In this document: positions 28,077 to 36,912 of the stretch, piece by piece | Position numbering within the stretch: position 1 is the first letter of the stretch | Layout: each line of letters starts with the position of its first letter | Assembly (NCBI GenBank): GCA_026710105.1 | Contig: JAPORR010000094.1 | Location: 1-36,912 of the forward strand | Length of the DNA: 36,912 bases | Direction: 5' to 3' | From: Alphaproteobacteria bacterium | GTDB lineage: Bacteria > Pseudomonadota > Alphaproteobacteria > Bin95 | Notes under the pieces: model-generated | What the model was told of the DNA's origin: nothing | The model's database searches: none | Seen by the model: only the letters and a program-made list of their open reading frames with translations | Position numbers and translations under genes: made by a program

Positions 28077-29332
28077 GCGGCGTCTCCCACAAGCCCGCGC
28101 ACGGCTATGCGGAAGGCGTTGCCGCGTGCCTCGAAACTATCCCACTGGTCGAAGGAGGCGGCCGCGGGAGCCAGCAGCACGACCTCACCGGGCTGTGCAT
28201 CGCGATGGGCGGCCGCCAGCGCTGTATCGAGATCGCCCAGGCGTTCGCATGCGGCATGTCCGGCAAGCGCGTCTGCGAATGTGGCTTCAGAGGCGCCGAT
28301 GAGATAGGCCTTTGCGATCCGCCCGAACCAGGGCCGGACCACGTCGAGGTTATCCGTTTTTGCCTCACCGCCGGCGATCCAGCGCACACGGTCGAAACTT
28401 GCGAGCGCGAAGGCCGCCGATTCCGGATTGGTCGCCTTGCTGTCGTTCACATAGCGCACACCGGCGATCTCGCCGACCGTCTCCATCCGGTGCGGTAGGC
28501 CACGGAATCCCTCCATGGCGTCGTGCGCATCCTTGTGGTCGATGCCGAGCGCGGCGAGCGCGGCGAGCGCGGCGGCCGCATTACGGCGGTTGTGTAGGCC
28601 AGGCAGGAAGGGGAGGGCAGGGCCATCGTCGCCGGTGATGACGACAGTTCGCCCTTCAGTGCGCAGGTGGGCCGCCAGCCGGCGGCACCAGGGGTCGCTA
28701 TCACCGATGACGACGGTCGCCCGGTTCCCAAAGATGCGTGCCTTGTCGGCGGCATAACGGTGCATCCCGCCATGTCGGTCGAGATGGTCGGGAGCGATAT
28801 TAAGCAGTACCGCGACATTGAAGGCGGGGCGCGCCATGAGCGCGAGCTGGTAGGAGGACAGTTCGAGCGCATAGACACCGCCACGGTCGAGTGCTGGCAG
28901 CCCGAGTGCTGCCGGGCCGAGATTGCCGCCAACAGCATAGGGCACGCCCAGACGGCCGAGCGCATGCCCGATCAGGGCGGTCACCGTCGATTTGCCGTTG
29001 GTACCTGTGACACCGACGAAGCGGCTTTCCGGCATGGCTTCGGTCAGCAGGGAGATATCCGCTTCCGGCCGGACATGGGCGGCATAGGCCTTGAGGGCGA
29101 GCGGGTGAGGGCGCGGATGAAGATGGGGTATGCCGGGACTCCAGACCAGTCGGTCCAGCCCGGAGGGATCGAAGGGCGGCACTGCGCCGAACTGCCGGCG
29201 CAACTCCTCGCGGTCGTCCCAGACATGGAGATATGCGCCGGCGGCGGCAAAGGCAGCCACCGCCGCTTGCCCGGACCGGCCGAGTCCCACCACGCCCACC
29301 TCGGCGCCGCGATATGCCGGCAGAGGGATCAT
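28073..29332 (-). CDS. murD: UDP-N-acetylmuramoyl-L-alanine--D-glutamate ligase
   Basis: A 419-residue cytoplasmic ligase adding D-glutamate to UDP-MurNAc-L-Ala. The frame is open to 30445, but everything above 29332 lies in another frame of mraY. The ATG at 29332 overlaps the mraY stop (ATGA) and gives [23 protein letters not shown], the usual MurD beginning with the GLGRSG loop. The ATP loop is [20 protein letters not shown] and [11 protein letters not shown] follow, then [27 protein letters not shown], the diagnostic MurD segment. It appears fully functional. Confidence 0.97.
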
Positions 29333-30417
29333 CGTAGCTTCAGCGTGGCGAGCCCGGCCAGCGCCAGGACCACAGCGACGATCCAGAAGCGGATGACGAT
29401 GGTCGGCTCTTTCCAGCCCTTCTGTTCGAAATGGTGGTGCAGCGGTGCCATGCGGAACACGCGCTTGCCGGTAAGCCGGAATGAGGCCACCTGCATGATG
29501 ACCGAGACGGCCTCGAGGACGAACAGCCCGCCCACGATGGCAAGCACTAGTTCGTGCTTGGTGATGACGGCGACCGAACCCAGCGTGCCGCCACAGGCGA
29601 GCGAGCCGGTATCGCCCATGAACACCATGGCTGGTGGCGCGTTGTACCAGAGGAAGCCAAGGGACGCCCCCACCAGCGCGCCAAGCAGCACCGTAAGTTC
29701 GCCGGCGCCGGGGACCGGGTGGATCTGCAGATATTCCGCGAATACGGTATGGCCTGCGAGATAGGCGATGAAGCCGAAACACCCTGCGGCTATCATCACC
29801 GGCACGATTGCGAGCCCGTCGAGCCCGTCGGTCAGATTGACTGCATTCGACGACCCGGTCATCACCAGCACGCCGAAGGGCACGGCGAACCAGCCGAGAT
29901 CGATCACCAGGTCCTTGAACATTGGAATCGCGAGGCCATAGCCGAGGGGGGCGCCGACAATCTCCGCCGCTGCGATAGCTGCTGCCGCGCTTACTACGAT
30001 CTGCACCGCGAGTTTCGCCTTTCCAGGCAGGCCGCGGCTGCTGCGGCGTGCGACCTTCAGATAGTCGTCCGCAAAGCCAACCAGGCCGAAGCAGAGCGTT
30101 ACCGCCAGCACGATCCATACATAGCGATTGGCGAGGTCGGCCCAGAGCAGTGTGCTGGAAACAAGCGCTGCGAGGATGAGCGTGCCGCCCATGGTCGGCG
30201 TGCCGCGCTTGGTCTCCAGGTGGGATTTCGGGCCATCCTCGCGAATCGGCTGACCTTCGGCCTGTCTGGCGCGCAGCCAGGCGATCATGCCGGGGGCAAG
30301 CAGGAAGCTGAGTGCAAGCGCGGTCAGCGTCGCGGCTCCAGACCGGAAAGTAATGTAGCGGAACAGGTTGAAAAGCTGGAAGTCCTCTGCCAGCGGCGTG
30401 AGCAGGTTGTAAAGCAT
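29329..30417 (-). CDS. mraY: MraY, phospho-MurNAc-pentapeptide translocase
   Basis: A 362-residue integral membrane enzyme that transfers phospho-MurNAc-pentapeptide to undecaprenyl phosphate, forming lipid I. About ten membrane helices are visible. The active-site motifs are present: GFADDYLKV with the double aspartate, [13 protein letters not shown], and the HHHFE motif in [12 protein letters not shown]. The N-terminus [25 protein letters not shown] is typical for alphaproteobacteria. The gene begins six bases after murF and overlaps murD by four bases. Confidence 0.98.
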
Positions 30418-30423
30418 AGCCGC

Positions 30424-31791
30424 TCAACCCCCTGCACCTGCGCAACGCTCAAGCGCCTCGATCACCGCCTTCATGTTCACGCCCAGCGAACCCTTGACGA
30501 GAACGATATCACCGGGCGCAACGGTGTCCGTTACAAGGGGGGCGAGCGCGGCGGCGTCGGGGCGGTGCGCGCCCTGCCGATCAGGCGCCAAGCGGTCGAA
30601 TAGTCGGCGCATCCCGGATCCGGCTGCGAAGACGAGATCGACCCTGGAGGCTTCGAGTGGGGCGGCGAGCTCGTCATGGGCACGGCCAGAATCGCTGCCG
30701 AGCTCGAGCATGTCACCTAGAACCGCGATCCGCCGGCCGCCGGGTCCAGGTTTGGTGAGGCCGAGCACCCGGAATGCCGCATCCATTGCAGCGGGGCTCG
30801 CATTGTAGCTCTCGTCGATCAGTGTCCAGCCGCCCATATCCCGTCGGCCGCCGCGGCCTGCGGGTGGATGGAACGCAGCCAGGACCTCGGGGTCGGGAGT
30901 CACGCCGAAGGTGTCAAGCGCCAACAGCACGCCGACGGCATTGAGTGCCCAGTGCGCGCCCGGCGCGCCCAGCCGGAAATCGCATCGCTTGCCCCGGATT
31001 TCCGCTGCGATGTTACTGCCGGTGGCGTCAAGGGAGGCGTGAATCAACACTGCGTCACCCGCCCGGCGTGAGAAACGCAGGATTTCAGCTCCGGCGCGTT
31101 TCGCGGCAGCTTCAAGGCATTCGATATGAGGGGTGTCCGCATTGAGAATGGCTGTGCCACCGGGCTCCAGGCCCTCGAATATCTCGGCCTTGGCGTTGGC
31201 CACCTCCTCGAGATCGCGGAAAAACGCCGTATGCGCCGGGGTGATCGCGGTTATCAATGCCGTATGGGGACGGACCAGGTGTGAGAGTGGGGCGATCTCG
31301 CCTGCATGGTTCATGCCGAGTTCGAAGACACCGTAGGCCGCGTCGCGTGGTAGGCGCGCGAGGGAAAGCGGAGCCCCCCATTCATTGTTGAGATTGCCCT
31401 GGCTGGCCTCCGTACGGCCGGCGCGAGACAGTAGGCGGCAGAGTAGGTTCTTGCAGCCTGTCTTGCCGACGCTGCCGGTGATGGCGGCAATGCGCGCCGT
31501 CGAGCGCATGCGGGCGGCGCGGGCGAGCGCATAGAGGCCTGCGCGCGTGTCCATAACATGGAGCGTGGGCAGATCGGCGTTGTAATCGCGGCTCACCATT
31601 GCCGCCACCGCACCGCCCGCCAACGCCTGGCCGACGAAGCAATGCCCGTCGTGATTCGGCCCGGCGACGGCGACGAAGAGATCCCCGACAGAAACCGTAC
31701 GGCCATCGATGGCAACGCCCGAGGCTTCCCAGTCTCCCTGAGGCGTGCCGCCGGTGGCGGTGGCGGCTTCGCTCGCGGTCCAGAGCGTCAT
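30424..31791 (-). CDS. murF: UDP-MurNAc-tripeptide--D-alanyl-D-alanine ligase
   Basis: A 455-residue cytoplasmic ligase that adds D-Ala-D-Ala to the UDP-MurNAc-tripeptide. The N-terminal substrate domain includes GVAIDGRTVSVGDLFVA. The ATP-binding loop is ITGSVGKTGCKNLL, with Lys110; the residue after KT is glycine (Gly112), where Mur ligases usually have serine or threonine. The NNEWG motif, the ELGMNHAGEI segment and the C-terminal IDESYNASPAAMDAAF are typical MurF blocks. The ATG overlaps the murE stop (ATGA). Since no other murF is seen and the rest is normal, it is probably active despite the substitution. Confidence 0.96.
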   Translation of the reverse strand: MTLWTASEAATATGGTPQGDWEASGVAIDGRTVSVGDLFVAVAGPNHDGHCFVGQALAGGAVAAMVSRDYNADLPTLHVMDTRAGLYALARAARMRSTARIAAITGSVGKTGCKNLLCRLLSRAGRTEASQGNLNNEWGAPLSLARLPRDAAYGVFELGMNHAGEIAPLSHLVRPHTALITAITPAHTAFFRDLEEVANAKAEIFEGLEPGGTAILNADTPHIECLEAAAKRAGAEILRFSRRAGDAVLIHASLDATGSNIAAEIRGKRCDFRLGAPGAHWALNAVGVLLALDTFGVTPDPEVLAAFHPPAGRGGRRDMGGWTLIDESYNASPAAMDAAFRVLGLTKPGPGGRRIAVLGDMLELGSDSGRAHDELAAPLEASRVDLVFAAGSGMRRLFDRLAPDRQGAHRPDAAALAPLVTDTVAPGDIVLVKGSLGVNMKAVIEALERCAGAGG

Positions 31792-33230
31792 GCTGCCTGC
31801 TTTGCTAATTGCCGCGCGACAGCACGGTCGTCGAAGGCGTGAACCTCGGTGCCAACAATCTGGCTCGCTTCATGCCCTTTCCCGGCAATCAGTAACGCGT
31901 CGTCGGGCCCAAGGCCCTCCATGCCCGTGGCGATGGCCACCTTCCGGTCGCCAATATCCGCCGCGCCGGGACAGGCCGCGCGGATGGCAGCCCGGATCGT
32001 TGCCGGGTCTTCGCCGCGCGGATTGTCATCGGTGACGATGGTCCGGTCGGCCAGCCGGTGCGCCACGGCTCCCATTTCCGCCCGCTTGCCCGTATCGCGG
32101 TCGCCACCGGCGCCGAATACCAGAACGAGCCGACCGCGCACGAATGGCCGCAGCGCTTCCAGCACGGCGGTGAGAGCGCCCGGCTTGTGGGCGTAATCGA
32201 CATAGACCGGAGCACCCGATGGGGCGCGCGCTGCAAGTTCGAGCCGGCCCCGGACGCTGCGCAGGCCCTCCAGGCAGGCGACGACGGCGTGCGGGTCGTC
32301 ATGTCCGCCCGCTACGGCGCCGAGCGCGGCAAGCGCATTCTCCGCCTGGAACACCCCAATAAAGGGCATGCGGGCGCGGTGGTGGCGGCCGAGAAGCCGG
32401 AACGAGACGAGCTGTCCCGCTTCCGTGGGCTCAAGATGCTCGATCGCGATATCCAGCCCTGGCCCCCTTCGCCCGTAACGCCAAACATCATGTCCGGCGG
32501 CGCGCGCCGCTTCGCCAACCGCCGGGCCGGCCGGATCGTCTGCATTGACGACTGCAAAACCACCGGGCGGCATGACCCTGCGGAACAGGCCGAGCTTCGC
32601 CTCCAGATAGCTCTCAAGATCGCAATGGTAGTCGAGATGGTCGCGTGAGAGGTTGGTGAACACGCCCGTCGAGACTGTCACGCCGTCCAGGCGATACTGG
32701 TCGAGTCCGTGGCTGGACGCTTCCATCGCCACGCGGTCGATGCCCGCTTCGGCCAGCCGGGCGAGGTCATGGTGCAAGGCGACGGGATCGGGCGTGGTGA
32801 GCGCGCCTGCGCGGCACAGCCCCGGCGCGATCAGGCCGAGCGTGCCGAGACTGGCTGCCGACAGGCCGAGCAGGCGCCAGAGTTGTCGGATGAACTCTAC
32901 TACTGACGTCTTGCCACTGGTGCCGGTGACGGCGACCATTTTCGCCGGTTGGACCCCGAAAAACCGTGCCGCCAGTCGAGCGAACAGCCGGCGGGGGGTT
33001 TCATCAAGAATGACCGTGATGCCGGCCGGAAGCATGTCGGCCGCTGTGCCGGCCGGCACAAGGATCGCCTTGGCGCCCCTCGCGATCGCGTCCGGAATGA
33101 AGGCGCGACCGTCCGTCCGACCTCCCGGCACGGCCATGAACAAATATCCTGGCCGCACATCCCGGGAATCAGCAGTCATGCCGCAGATGCCGAGCGCCTG
33201 GAGATCTATCGGATGCCCCGCCGGGGACAT
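31788..33230 (-). CDS. murE: UDP-MurNAc-L-Ala-D-Glu--meso-diaminopimelate ligase
   Basis: A 480-residue cytoplasmic ligase adding the third stem residue. The ATP loop VTGTSGKTS has Lys107. DNPR at residues 402-405 is the motif that selects meso-diaminopimelate, so a Gram-negative type peptidoglycan is expected. The block EASSHGLDQYRLDGV and the VYVDYAHKPGALTAVLEAL segment are standard MurE. The ATG shares one base with the ftsI stop (TAATG). The N-terminal domain is slightly short compared with E. coli but includes the conserved TADSRDVRPGYLFMAVPG region. Confidence 0.97.
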   Translation of the reverse strand: MSPAGHPIDLQALGICGMTADSRDVRPGYLFMAVPGGRTDGRAFIPDAIARGAKAILVPAGTAADMLPAGITVILDETPRRLFARLAARFFGVQPAKMVAVTGTSGKTSVVEFIRQLWRLLGLSAASLGTLGLIAPGLCRAGALTTPDPVALHHDLARLAEAGIDRVAMEASSHGLDQYRLDGVTVSTGVFTNLSRDHLDYHCDLESYLEAKLGLFRRVMPPGGFAVVNADDPAGPAVGEAARAAGHDVWRYGRRGPGLDIAIEHLEPTEAGQLVSFRLLGRHHRARMPFIGVFQAENALAALGAVAGGHDDPHAVVACLEGLRSVRGRLELAARAPSGAPVYVDYAHKPGALTAVLEALRPFVRGRLVLVFGAGGDRDTGKRAEMGAVAHRLADRTIVTDDNPRGEDPATIRAAIRAACPGAADIGDRKVAIATGMEGLGPDDALLIAGKGHEASQIVGTEVHAFDDRAVARQLAKQAA

Positions 33231-34903
33231 TAGGCTTCCCCGTCTGTGAACAGCTGCGACAGAAACGGTTCGGGCACAATGTCTTGCATCCAGGCGTCCG
33301 AGTCCGGCCCGGCCGTGGGCAGGTTAAGGATCGGTCCGACACGGGGGATCACGGCACCCGCGACCGGAACAGCGTTCCAAGCGGCAGTCGCAAAGCCAAA
33401 GGTCTCCTTGCGGGCCTTTGGCTCGTCCAGCATGATGAAAATCGAATAGCGAGGTTCTGCGATCGGGAAGACCCCGACAAAGGAGCTCAGTCGCTTACTG
33501 CGGTCATAGCGCCCGTTCACCACCTTTTCAGCTGTGCCAGTCTTGCCGCCGACGGGATAAGAGGCATTGTCTGCTCTGGATCCGCTTCCCCGAAGGACAA
33601 CCTGGCGCATCATCCATCGCATCTTGTCGGAGGTCTCGGGAGAAAAGACCCTCTGGACCTGCGCCGGTGCGGCGCGCCTCAGCAGGGTGACAGGCACGGC
33701 TACACCGTCATTCGCCAGCGCCCCAATTGCTGCTGCGGTCTGAAGGGGGCTGACGGACAGGCCGTGGCCGAAACCGACCGTCATTGTCGTCAGGGGACGC
33801 CAGGTTCGCGGCACGATCGGATGGCCAACTTCTGGAAGTTCCAGGGCCGGCCGGCTCATTAAGCCTAGCTTGTCGAGATAGTCCCTGAAAACCGTCGCCC
33901 CGATTTTTTCCGCGATCTGTGCTGCGCCGATATTGGATGAATGAATGATGACCTCGGCGGCGGACAGCACCCGGTTCTGACCTCGATAATCGCCGATTCT
34001 GTGCCCAAACGCCCTGATAGGGGTGGTGGCGTCGAAGCGGCTCGTCAGGCTCGAAATGCCCTGGTCGAGCGCTGTAGCGAGGGTGAGCAGTTTGAACGTC
34101 GATCCCATCTCGGCGACCAGAAGCGAAGCCCGGTTGGCTTGCGTCTCGTCCATGCTTGCCTGGCGATTAGGGTCGAAATCGGGTAATGAGACCATCGCCT
34201 GCACTTCGCCCGTGCGGATATCGAGCACCAGGCCGGCAGCGCCAATGGCCGAGAAATACTCCATCGCCCGCGCCAGCTCCTCGCGGAGGATGTGCTGGAT
34301 GCGAATATCCATGGAAAGCTGCACGCTTTGCGCCGGGTCGGACAGAATGGCGTTGAAGCGTTGTTCTGCGCCGGCATTGCCGACCGGGCCTGCATCACTC
34401 GGTTTGGTGCGCCCGACCACATGGGCTGTGAGCCGCCCGTACGGATAGATACGCATGTCTTCGGGCTTGAGGCCGATGCCGGGTAAGCCGAGATCGAGCA
34501 CGGCTTTCTGGTCCTGCGGAGTGAGGCGTCTCGCGACGAAGACGAATTTCCGGCTGAGCGACAGGCGCTGGCGTATCTCCTCGAAACTGAGCCAAGGCAG
34601 AGCGCCTGCAAGCTGGGCCGCCACCACCTCGACATCGTCGATCTGCGGCGGCCAGGCGACCAGCGCTCGTGAAACGATGCTGGTCGCGAGCAATCGCCCG
34701 TTGCGGTCGATAATATCGCCCCGCTGCACTGGGTGCTCGGAGCGGACCTGTTCAGTAGATGGCTGCTTGTCTGGAGTCAGCGTGCTGAGCCCGACTAGCT
34801 TGACGGACAGGATCGAGAGGCTCGCAGCGAAAGCGAGGATACCGAACGCAAGGCGCTTGCGGGCGAGCGCGAGGGCGGGCGATGGGGAGCGGTGCCGGTT
34901 CAT
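33230..34903 (-). CDS. ftsI: FtsI (PBP3), septal peptidoglycan transpeptidase
   Basis: A 557-residue bitopic membrane protein that cross-links septal peptidoglycan with FtsW. The ATG at 34903 overlaps the ftsL stop (ATGA) and has GGAAGAG upstream; a GTG two codons earlier is the alternative. One membrane helix follows the basic N-terminus (about 16-38). The pedestal domain includes RGDIIDRNGRLLATS. The transpeptidase domain has the three penicillin-binding motifs: STFK with the acylated Ser268 and Lys271, SSN at 322-324, and KTG starting at Lys454. No inactivating change is seen. It is a beta-lactam target. Confidence 0.97.
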   Translation of the reverse strand: MNRHRSPSPALALARKRLAFGILAFAASLSILSVKLVGLSTLTPDKQPSTEQVRSEHPVQRGDIIDRNGRLLATSIVSRALVAWPPQIDDVEVVAAQLAGALPWLSFEEIRQRLSLSRKFVFVARRLTPQDQKAVLDLGLPGIGLKPEDMRIYPYGRLTAHVVGRTKPSDAGPVGNAGAEQRFNAILSDPAQSVQLSMDIRIQHILREELARAMEYFSAIGAAGLVLDIRTGEVQAMVSLPDFDPNRQASMDETQANRASLLVAEMGSTFKLLTLATALDQGISSLTSRFDATTPIRAFGHRIGDYRGQNRVLSAAEVIIHSSNIGAAQIAEKIGATVFRDYLDKLGLMSRPALELPEVGHPIVPRTWRPLTTMTVGFGHGLSVSPLQTAAAIGALANDGVAVPVTLLRRAAPAQVQRVFSPETSDKMRWMMRQVVLRGSGSRADNASYPVGGKTGTAEKVVNGRYDRSKRLSSFVGVFPIAEPRYSIFIMLDEPKARKETFGFATAAWNAVPVAGAVIPRVGPILNLPTAGPDSDAWMQDIVPEPFLSQLFTDGEA

Positions 34904-35301
34904 CGCCACTCTTCCGCGCTTGGGGAAAAGGACAGGCGGGACGGCGTCTCCGTCGGGAGTCCGGAGATGGAATCACCGTCCCGCCCGGCGCGAACCCTGT
35001 TTCGTGGCGGCTCGGGAGCATTGGCCGTCCGAGCTGGGAGGAAGCTCGACCGGTGAAGCTGATCCGCCTCGATGGGAACAAGGCTCAGGGCGCGCGCGTT
35101 CTGAATTTCAAGGGTTTGCGGCTGCGTGAGATATGCAAGTTCGCTGCGCAATACCTGGATACGCTCGCGCTCAGCGAGCACCAGTTGGTTGAGTTCGGCC
35201 AATTGCTCCTTGTGGTCACGAACATGGTCGCTGACCGTGAAGAGCCCGGCCGCCATCGCCGCCGCGCTGACGCACCAGAAGGCTGTTGTTCTGGTGCTCA
35301 T
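34900..35301 (-). CDS. ftsL: FtsL-like division protein
   Basis: A 133-residue small bitopic protein. A short cytoplasmic N-terminus is followed by one membrane helix (about 7-25) and a coiled coil at about 28-60 (DHKEQLAELNQLVLAERERIQVLRSEL, described here in parts: heptad leucines at regular spacing). The tail is Pro/Arg-rich and probably disordered. Sequence conservation of FtsL is very low, so the call rests on topology and its place between rsmH and ftsI. It overlaps both neighbours by four bases. It would form the FtsQLB complex that activates FtsWI. Confidence 0.85.
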   Translation of the reverse strand: MSTRTTAFWCVSAAAMAAGLFTVSDHVRDHKEQLAELNQLVLAERERIQVLRSELAYLTQPQTLEIQNARALSLVPIEADQLHRSSFLPARTANAPEPPRNRVRAGRDGDSISGLPTETPSRLSFSPSAEEWR

Positions 35302-36224
35302 GCTGCGAGCTTCTCGGCGGCGCGCATCCGGGCAGAGCGCGCCCGGGGGTTGGCGGCAATTTCAACGGCACCGGGCCGGACGGCGCGGCGATGCAGGAGC
35401 CGGAAGGAAGCCTGCGGCGGCGTGGCTTCGGGCGGCCGATGGCGGGATCCGCTGGGAAGCGTGCCGCTGCGCGCGCGCAGGAAATGCTTGACTGCGCGAT
35501 CCTCCAGGGAATGAAAGGAAACCACGGCGAGCCGCCCACCCGGTGCGAGAATTGTTTCCGCCGCCGCCAGCCCGCGCTCGAGCTCGCCGAGCTCGTCATT
35601 GACGGCGATACGCAGCGCCTGGAAGGTCCGTGTTGCTGGATGGATCCGGCTATCTGCTGGCGTGATGCTTGCGATGAGGGCTGCGAGACGGTCCGTCGTG
35701 AGGATCGGCGCCTCGCGGCGTGCGGCGACGATCGCGCGGGCCACCCGGCGGGCGCGCGGCTCTTCGCCATAGCGGCGAATGAGGTCGGCAAGCTGGTCTT
35801 GGTCGAGGCCGGCGATGAGGTCGCCGGCCGTCGGCCCTTCGACGCTCATGCGCATGTCGAGCGGTCCGGGTGCAAAAGAAAAACCCCTCTGCGGGTCGTC
35901 GAGCTGCGCCGAGGACACGCCGAGGTCGAACGCAACGCCGTCCGCCGGTGCGAAGGCTTCGTCGAACGCAATGCTTTCCAGTTCGGAAAACCGCGCGTGG
36001 CGGAAGCGGAAGCGGCCGCCACAATCGCGGCCGAGGGCAGCCGCGGCACTTTCTGCCGCCGGGTCGCAATCCAGCGCCAGTACCCGGCAGGGCGCCGAGG
36101 CCAACAGGGCGCGGGAATAACCACCGCGGCCAAATGTGGCGTCAACATAGTGCCCACCGGCTCGCGGACCAATGGCAGCAACGACCTCCGGGGCCATGAC
36201 TGGAATGTGCCTGCCGGTGGTCAC
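35298..36224 (-). CDS. rsmH: RsmH (MraW), 16S rRNA m4C1402 methyltransferase
   Basis: A 308-residue SAM-dependent methyltransferase modifying C1402 of 16S rRNA in the decoding centre. The longest frame starts at 36311 in mraZ. The family start TTGRHIPVMAPEVV points to GTG at 36224, which overlaps the mraZ stop by four bases (GTGA). The SAM loop is YVDATFGRGGYSRALL. The family motif GVAFDLGVSSAQLDDPQRGFSF and the C-terminal LAVVSFHSLEDRAVKHFL are present. The last 40 residues are basic. No clear ribosome binding site precedes the GTG, consistent with coupling to mraZ translation. Confidence 0.96.
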   Translation of the reverse strand: MTTGRHIPVMAPEVVAAIGPRAGGHYVDATFGRGGYSRALLASAPCRVLALDCDPAAESAAAALGRDCGGRFRFRHARFSELESIAFDEAFAPADGVAFDLGVSSAQLDDPQRGFSFAPGPLDMRMSVEGPTAGDLIAGLDQDQLADLIRRYGEEPRARRVARAIVAARREAPILTTDRLAALIASITPADSRIHPATRTFQALRIAVNDELGELERGLAAAETILAPGGRLAVVSFHSLEDRAVKHFLRARSGTLPSGSRHRPPEATPPQASFRLLHRRAVRPGAVEIAANPRARSARMRAAEKLAA

Positions 36225-36730
36225 GACTCGAACTCTGGCTGGAGGAATCCGCCAAAGCGGATGAGCTTTCTGGCTTCTTCGTCGAGCTCGTCGGTTACCT
36301 CGCTGATCCACTTGTCGTGCGTGGCCGGCTTCCAGATCTCGATGATGTCCACGGTGCCGATGAAGCGGACTTCGCTTTCAATGCCGCAGGTCTGGCGGAA
36401 GTCCTGTGGGAGTAGCAGGCGACCCTGCGCGTCGATCTGCGCATCTCGTGAACTTCCGACAAAGAGACTGACGATCTTGCCCGAGTCGATCGATTTGCCG
36501 CTCGCGCTTCTGACATCCTTCAGCTTCTGATGAATGTCCTTAGCCCAATTTTGCAGGTATCTCTCTTCGCAGAAAAATATGGCATCGCGGTCGTCGAATA
36601 CAGGCGCTGCCAGCAACCGCATCTCGGCATCCTGGGGAATTGAGCGCCGATGAGCCGCAGGCACAATGACCCGGCCCTTGGCATCCAGTTTCGCGTCATA
36701 TCGACCCGAGACCCGCACAGGAAATTCCAC
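36221..36730 (-). CDS. mraZ: MraZ, transcriptional regulator of the dcw cluster
   Basis: A 169-residue DNA-binding protein with two AbrB-like MraZ repeats, each with the DxKGR-type motif: LDAKGRVIVPA at about residues 16-26 and IDAQGRLLLPQ near 99-109. It forms a ring and represses its own operon. No ATG is available; GTG at 36730 gives MEFPVRVSGRYDAKLD, but it abuts a GGGAG sequence too closely for a normal ribosome binding site. GTG at 36718 with GGGAGG eleven bases upstream is the alternative and shortens the product by four residues. It is the first gene of the cluster. Candidate binding repeats lie 38-73 bases upstream. Confidence 0.95.
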   Translation of the reverse strand: MEFPVRVSGRYDAKLDAKGRVIVPAAHRRSIPQDAEMRLLAAPVFDDRDAIFFCEERYLQNWAKDIHQKLKDVRSASGKSIDSGKIVSLFVGSSRDAQIDAQGRLLLPQDFRQTCGIESEVRFIGTVDIIEIWKPATHDKWISEVTDELDEEARKLIRFGGFLQPEFES

Positions 36731-36746: not shown

Positions 36747-36763
36747 AAGGGGTTCTAACCCTT
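36747..36763. other. Hairpin in the mraZ leader
   Basis: AAGGGGTT (36747-36754) pairs with AACCCTT (36757-36763) across two bases, with one extra G. It lies between the CCA(C/T) repeat array and the mraZ start. The loop is too tight for the full stem, so a shorter 5-6 base stem is likely. It may be an additional control element or chance. Confidence 0.25.
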
Positions 36764-36768
36764 TCTAG

Positions 36769-36804
36769 CCACTTCACTCCATATTACATCCACTTTCAAC
36801 CACT
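36769..36804 (-). promoter_or_regulatory. Probable MraZ operator: four direct repeats
   Basis: Read on the coding (minus) strand, AGTGG, AGTGG, ATGGA and AGTGG recur with TGG steps of 10, 11 and 10 bases (plus-strand CCA at 36769, 36779, 36790 and 36800). MraZ is known to bind short TGG-type direct repeats spaced by one helical turn upstream of its own gene. Position, orientation and spacing all fit, so this is probably the autorepression site of the dcw operon. The exact bases differ from the E. coli TGGG repeats. Confidence 0.65.
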
Positions 36805-36815
36805 GCGATAGGATT

Positions 36816-36821
36816 CGTCAA
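36816..36821 (-). promoter_or_regulatory. Possible -35 element of the dcw promoter
   Basis: TTGACG on the minus strand, just upstream of the repeat array, matches a -35 box. No good -10 is seen 16-18 bases downstream (best TTGAAA/TGAAAG). A GANTC methylation site overlaps at 36812-36816. From 36822 to the window edge nothing else is recognised, apart from an AAGCCGC-T5 sequence that could be the end of a terminator lying outside. Confidence 0.3.
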
Positions 36822-36912
36822 GCCCGACCTCCGAAAAAATTAGCGGCGGGCGCCATTCTTCATTGTTGCCGGAAAATCTGGATAAGAACAAAAAGCGGCT
36901 TCCCTTAGGTTA

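Follow-up and report, generated by a model that had tools for sequence, protein, structure and literature searches.

The DNA upstream of mraZ in an alphaproteobacterial dcw cluster contains a four-box array of direct repeats that very probably represents a true MraZ operator. It is best explained as the MraZ operator at the dcw promoter, in a host genus whose MraZ and operator form a lineage-specific pair (probability of approximately 0.88). The stretch of DNA analysed, referred to as the window, is one whole contig of 36,912 bases, and the dcw cluster, on the minus strand, occupies its right end. MraZ occurs widely among bacteria. The observations comprise the presence of the array, its retention across the genus, and its orientation relative to that in the rest of the class, together with the counts of its steps, the predicted fold of the MraZ protein, and the divergence of that protein. 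The contrast in array orientation between the host genus and most of the class is the most informative outcome.

Table 1 Features of the window and the evidence for their assignment
Feature	Position	Strand	Remarks
mraZ, MraZ transcriptional repressor	36221..36718	minus	stop codon 36221-36223; GTG start in all five genomes
rsmH (mraW), second dcw gene	35298..36311	minus	TIGR00006, 266 bits; true start uncertain within open frame
ftsL	34900..35301	minus	NF049847
ftsI-type penicillin-binding transpeptidase	33230..34909	minus	several PBP models below cut-offs; name from position
murE	31788..33230	minus	Mur ligase domains; assigned by gene order
murF	30424..31791	minus	Mur ligase domains; assigned by gene order
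mraY	29329..30417	minus	MraY-type domain
Four-box putative MraZ operator array	36769..36803	minus	GTGG 36803, GTGG 36793, ATGG 36782, GTGG 36772; steps 10, 11, 10
Degenerate fifth box AGGG	36759..36762	minus	one 10-bp step downstream of fourth box; relaxed-core search
TTGACG, possible -35 element	36816..36821	minus	unvaried in all five genomes; box 1 begins 18 bp after its start

The array lies on the minus strand, which is the sense strand of mraZ. Four TGG-centred repeats with steps of 10, 11, and 10 directly upstream of mraZ, as described in the first-pass annotation of this DNA, are present at 36769–36803 and read GTGGTTGAAA GTGGATGTAAT ATGGAGTGAA GTGG, one of the four cores being ATGG instead of GTGG. 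The order leading to mraZ is TTGACG, 12 nucleotides, GTGGTTGAAA GTGGATGTAAT ATGGAGTGAA GTGGCTAGAA AGGG. The array contains at least three direct RTGG repeats at 10–11 bp steps and immediately precedes mraZ, the first gene of the dcw cluster; direct RTGG repeats placed one helical turn apart in this position constitute the MraZ box. An additional relaxed-core box one step past the last box also occurs at three other loci of the host genus (L008, L009, and L010), and L007 has GAGG at the fifth-box position, as read by eye.

It is highly improbable that the repeats arose as a fortuitous series of TGG triplets or form the site of another regulator. Single RTGG cores are abundant, with more than 300 per strand in the window, and the spaced pattern with up to three mismatches is expected 0.58 times per window and is present in 45 of 100 shuffles; therefore, the match with zero mismatches alone counts. 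When both strands of the window were searched, the only chain of at least three RTGG boxes at 10- or 11-bp steps was the mraZ site. Chains of at least four boxes have a mean of 0.01 per window in 200 first-order Markov windows, and none of 20,000 simulated 182-nucleotide upstream regions contained such a chain. In the whole genome, two-box pairs show no excess (388 versus 490 in a reversed-pattern control), and GTGG-RTGG-RTGG has 11 matches versus 6 in the control. Two overlapping three-box matches, which amount to four boxes, occur in the genome at the mraZ site alone, although the three-box pattern begins with GTGG and ATGG-led chains would show in part only. Other regulators act on the mraZ promoter in some Alphaproteobacteria, as illustrated by the CtrA motif listed for mraZ of Sinorhizobium meliloti in the part of a published study considered here (PMC3616915). 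Nevertheless, the array is kept in all five readable genomes of the host genus while its spacers and steps change, and it stands in front of mraZ like its counterparts in other bacteria, which argues against a chance run.

The host genus is represented by eight genomes, five of which have a readable mraZ upstream region, including two that are nearly identical (L009 and L010; MraZ identity of 99%). Loci L001–L005 are the same sites as L006–L010 and were dropped before the counts. Of the other three genomes, one has an rsmH match that begins right at the edge of its contig, and the remaining two lack a match to rsmH as well; a loss of mraZ is not concluded. The alignment of upstream regions from related genomes, proposed with the first-pass annotation as a check, yields sense chains of four to five boxes at 10- or 11-bp steps in all five readable genomes, with both the position and the repeat character retained. 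The steps of the five arrays are 10-11-10, 11-10-11, 11-10-11-11, 10-10-11, and 10-10-11.

The consensus of the 21 boxes in the host genus is AAAGTGGYTG. The GTGG/ATGG core without a third G, noticed previously in the window, extends to the genus: 86% of the boxes have C or T at position +4 and none has G, whereas G occupies this position in 78% of boxes from other Alphaproteobacteria and in 47% of those from non-alphaproteobacteria. Position +6 is G in 90% of the host-genus boxes. Steps of 11 bp make up 8 of 16 intervals in the host genus, as opposed to 2 of 87 in the non-alphaproteobacterial arrays and 14 of 308 in those of other Alphaproteobacteria. At least one such step is present in five of five, 2 of 37, and 11 of 109 arrays, respectively. 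Fisher tests on the 11-bp steps give values of 2e-6 against the non-alphaproteobacterial and 1e-6 against the other alphaproteobacterial arrays, for five species that are kin to one another and not independent. The contrast in spacing is smaller at long range, because among pairs of boxes separated by four intervals, those 41 bp apart outnumber those 40 bp apart in the two comparison groups (17 versus 6 and 56 versus 45). The mean step in the host genus is 10.5 bp, and the helical repeat of relaxed DNA is 10.5 bp. Judged by these sequence comparisons, the combination of the GTGG core with 10- and 11-bp steps is distinctive of the host-genus array.

The sequence TTGACGA precedes the array in all five readable genomes without variation. 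The first box is positioned 18 bp after TTGAC in four of the genomes and 7 bp after it in one. No good -10 element was found in the window at the usual spacing from TTGACG, a scan of the region for sigma-70 consensus promoters gave no match, and the hexamer TATCCC is absent from the position 17 nucleotides after TTGAC in the host genus. The contig ends 91 bp past TTGACG. A short hairpin with a run of T residues behind it lies just upstream of TTGACG (36841–36855, minus strand), and the host genus conserves this run. The hairpin and T run are possibly the terminator of a gene past the contig end.

The array stands ahead of an alphaproteobacterial dcw cluster, as previously annotated, with the gene order mraZ, rsmH, ftsL, ftsI, murE, murF, and mraY. 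The likely start of mraZ is the GTG at 36718, which gives a protein of 165 residues and, unlike the GTG at 36730, is present in five of five host-genus genomes. The window MraZ matches Pfam PF02381 with 64.5 bits, above the cut-off of 23, the match to its second half being a stretch only. It scores below the NCBIfam equivalog cut-offs, with a best value of 72 bits against 162, and TIGR00242 gives 61.4 bits against a cut-off of 98.35. Residues D12..R16 and D96..R100 are kept and are invariant across 35 sequences; we take them to represent the D-x-x-x-R motif in each of the two AbrB-like halves. The AlphaFold model of the protein has a pLDDT of 86.5, and its comparison with the PDB retrieved 16 chains with E ≤ 0.001, all of them MraZ entries (including 1n0e and 1n0f). 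The two AbrB-like halves with their motifs and the predicted MraZ fold are those of the family, of which the window protein is a diverged member.

The orientation of arrays was counted strictly, as chains of at least three RTGG boxes within 300 nucleotides upstream of mraZ, with identical upstream regions counted once. All five host-genus arrays are in the sense orientation. By contrast, in other Alphaproteobacteria 109 loci have inverted arrays, one has a sense array, and 55 have no chain (n = 165), and the six loci from sister genera have no chain. Non-alphaproteobacterial Pseudomonadota have 37 sense arrays, none inverted, and 21 loci without a chain (n = 58). The loci were taken mostly from the top of score-ordered match lists of limited length and are not a random sample. 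One search gave matches in 241 of 289 genomes, some of which were examined. In an earlier count, none of 558 shuffles reached three boxes on either strand. The inverted arrays include those of S. meliloti (L271), Sinorhizobium sp. K101, and Shinella (L273), whereas the array of Tistrella is inverted by the relaxed core only. The array of the window may well define the MraZ recognition sequence for the host genus, as suggested by the first-pass annotation for its lineage; however, it is not typical of Alphaproteobacteria, with 109 of 165 loci inverted. Among the matches listed in titles and abstracts of open-licence literature, no description of inverted alphaproteobacterial MraZ arrays was found.

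Scoring with position matrices built from loci of families other than that of the host recovers the orientation in sister genera, where five of five scorable loci are inverted (p 0.005–0.010; sense strand p 0.12–0.95). The sixth sister-genus locus, L196, begins inside the gene and was dropped from the scoring. With the non-alphaproteobacterial matrix, the sense strand of all five host-genus loci reaches p = 0.005, the floor of 200 simulations, while the opposite strand gives p 0.11–0.86 with this matrix and 0.05–0.80 with the alphaproteobacterial one. The two types of box are not sharply distinct, because the alphaproteobacterial matrix also fits the host-genus sense strand weakly (p 0.005–0.06). 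Among seven loci of family f13, the scores indicate a clear inverted array in three, a weak one in two (L202 and L197), neither orientation in one, and a sense array in one (L151). L151 carries three GTGG boxes in the sense orientation, the first of them approximately 212 nucleotides upstream of the start of the MraZ domain, and may be another locus that departs from the inverted pattern. The examined loci of family f23 (L020, L166–L172, L174, L186, and L187) have no MraZ array. They have a long conserved leader ahead of mraZ, which resembles the long UpsM leader of Rhodobacteraceae as presented in an excerpt of the published work (PMC5089854). RNase P RNA was rejected as the identity of the conserved element, with no Rfam match in L166, L167, and L172. 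Sense GTGG chains are also present in Escherichia coli (L195, three boxes), Bacillus velezensis (L262, three), Bacteroides finegoldii (L260, three), and Nonomuraea (L263, four); in two more loci of other phyla, the chains comprise two boxes (L261) and one box (L264). The comparison of these sequences suggests that operator orientation is largely a trait of lineages and has been reversed, and that the spacing of the boxes is able to change.

The core of the inverted alphaproteobacterial arrays is ATGGGATA on the strand opposite mraZ. In 67 of the 109 inverted arrays, TTGAC is located inside the array or up to 12 nucleotides upstream of it, and 44 of the 67 have TATCCC as the hexamer 17 nucleotides after TTGAC. 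This -10-like hexamer is a MraZ box in reverse reading. In S. meliloti strain Ak57, a start 7 nucleotides after the -10 element would give a predicted leader of 171 nucleotides; the portion of the literature considered reports a leader of 170 nucleotides from public sequencing data (PMC5089854). The operator and promoter therefore seem, from their sequences, to form a single element at a large proportion of the inverted loci. In the 37 non-alphaproteobacterial arrays, 20 of the 29 distances found from TTGAC to the first box are 35–38 bp. The array of the window has neither ATGGGATA opposite mraZ nor a box-derived TATCCC. It shares with the inverted arrays of S. meliloti and Shinella the RTGG boxes approximately 10 bp apart before mraZ, often near TTGAC, but differs in its sense orientation and its GTGGYTG boxes.

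MraZ boxes of Escherichia coli were reportedly described by Eraso et al. in 2014. Like the window, the E. coli locus has GTGG boxes repeated directly ahead of mraZ on the sense strand of this gene; however, it contains three GTGGG boxes with steps of 10 and 10, as opposed to four GTGGY boxes, one of them led by ATGG, with steps of 10, 11, and 10. The first box follows TTGAC(G) by 37 bp in E. coli and by 18 bp in the window. The four repeats of the window had been regarded as including an extra one, but this number is not special: four repeats are common, as in Burkholderia cenocepacia according to the available part of the report (PMC7761207), in Mycoplasma genitalium according to the title of entry 9sz7, 'CryoEM structure of MraZ in complex with 4 box promoter from Mycoplasma genitalium', and in the inverted alphaproteobacterial arrays, 62 of 109 of which have four or more boxes. 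In the same part of the Burkholderia report, purified MraZ shifts a fragment in which four direct repeats were then found; the repeats are spaced by 10 bp, because they consist of 7 nucleotides with 3-nucleotide spacers, and lie downstream of a putative -10 element (PMC7761207). The window differs from Burkholderia in its mixed 10- and 11-bp steps and in the placement of its boxes over the expected -10 element. The MraZ site of Mollicutes, as quoted in PMC8475190, is a series of AAAGTG[T/G] repeats, which share the AAAGTGG-like core with the window. The MraZ operators named in the portions of the cited literature considered are those of E. coli, Bacillus, Burkholderia, and mycoplasmas.

We infer that MraZ binds the array and represses transcription, and that the protein and operator changed jointly. 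MraZ, as an oligomer of AbrB-like halves, would sit on successive RTGG boxes spaced approximately one helical turn apart. The bound protein would block the promoter and thus repress its own operon. In the window, where the boxes begin 18 bp after the start of TTGACG, the protein on its boxes would lie over the -10 and start region. The orientation and GTGG core in the host genus make its operator similar to those in the non-alphaproteobacteria examined and unlike those in most of the class, and the MraZ of the genus is strongly diverged.

The mraZ gene of the host genus may be native and fast-evolving, with the sense operator rebuilt in place, perhaps after the loss of a box-derived -10 element; this reading has a little less than an even chance. 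An import of mraZ and its operator as a block from outside the Alphaproteobacteria, in which the sense orientation is that of the donor and the inverted operator was replaced, is a minority prospect that nevertheless deserves consideration. Import would account for an ordinary RsmH beside an unusual MraZ: host-genus RsmH has mean identities of 54% to sister genera and 53% to other Alphaproteobacteria, comparable to the 55% among the latter, whereas host-genus MraZ has a mean identity of 23% to both groups. The corresponding MraZ identities are 30% between sister genera and other Alphaproteobacteria and 37% among other Alphaproteobacteria. However, low identity is not unique to the host genus, since pairs from sister genera are as low as 24%. 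The orientation and GTGG core are of the non-alphaproteobacterial kind, and host-genus MraZ proteins score evenly on the alphaproteobacterial (71–75 bits) and non-alphaproteobacterial (69–75 bits) profiles, unlike those of sister genera (74–112 versus 40–51 bits). Held-out MraZ sequences of either side favour their own profile by 62–126 bits. Against import, five MraZ proteins from other phyla favour the non-alphaproteobacterial profile by 23–51 bits, which host-genus MraZ does not, and MraZ of family f13 is likewise even between the profiles. The total GC content of mraZ is 57.3%, compared with 64.3% for the window and 68.2% for rsmH, which is consistent with import, but the GC3 of the two genes is equal (70.9%), as would be expected of a native gene. 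No donor was found: the best match outside the genus is 52.8 bits among the matches listed, and there was no donor match in viral contigs. In the donor search of the plasmid collection, the 20 of 33 matching records that were listed include Bacteroidota (64 and 61 bits), Klebsiella (56), and E. coli (54–55), values too close to discriminate.

Phylogenetic trees of MraZ bear on both accounts, and the larger and smaller trees disagree on the placement of the host genus. The larger tree places it with sequences from non-alphaproteobacteria and families f13 and f23, away from its own family (support 88), which speaks against a native gene. However, the grouping with sister genera is not rejected (p-AU 0.47), and the smaller tree puts the genus on the alphaproteobacterial side (support 89); the non-alphaproteobacterial placement is not rejected either (p-AU 0.78). 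The stem branch of the genus is very long, with 2.9 and 2.6 changes per site in two trees, and one sister genus (g3, L030) is also on a long branch (2.9), as would suit a native gene that evolves rapidly. The retention of TTGACG together with the absence of the TATCCC of other Alphaproteobacteria also points to rebuilding in place. Nonetheless, a native origin demands that the orientation, core, step length, and protein all changed within one genus while RsmH stayed ordinary.

A more specific proposal, which is unlikely although it merits mention, is that Alphaproteobacteria have an inverted MraZ operator fused to the promoter, with the backward box TATCCCAT serving as the -10 element, and that the host genus left that state for GTGGYTG boxes on a 10.5-bp repeat. 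The odds of this proposal are lowered because the spacing at long range narrows the contrast. If it were true, host-genus MraZ would bind one face of relaxed DNA, unlike the 10-bp geometry elsewhere. The natural operator variants that emerge from the comparison of orientation and spacing could be used to test how the MraZ oligomer reads direct repeats and whether the orientation of the operator towards the promoter matters for repression.

Two peculiarities of the source records were encountered. The first 50 bases of L196, on a contig of genome G012, are an apparent adapter, presumably of the Nextera sequencing type, and would be an assembly artefact. L260, L262, L264, and L271 come from PLSDB records labelled as plasmids that contain annotated mraZ and rsmH, and these records look like chromosomal pieces or mislabelled chromosomes.
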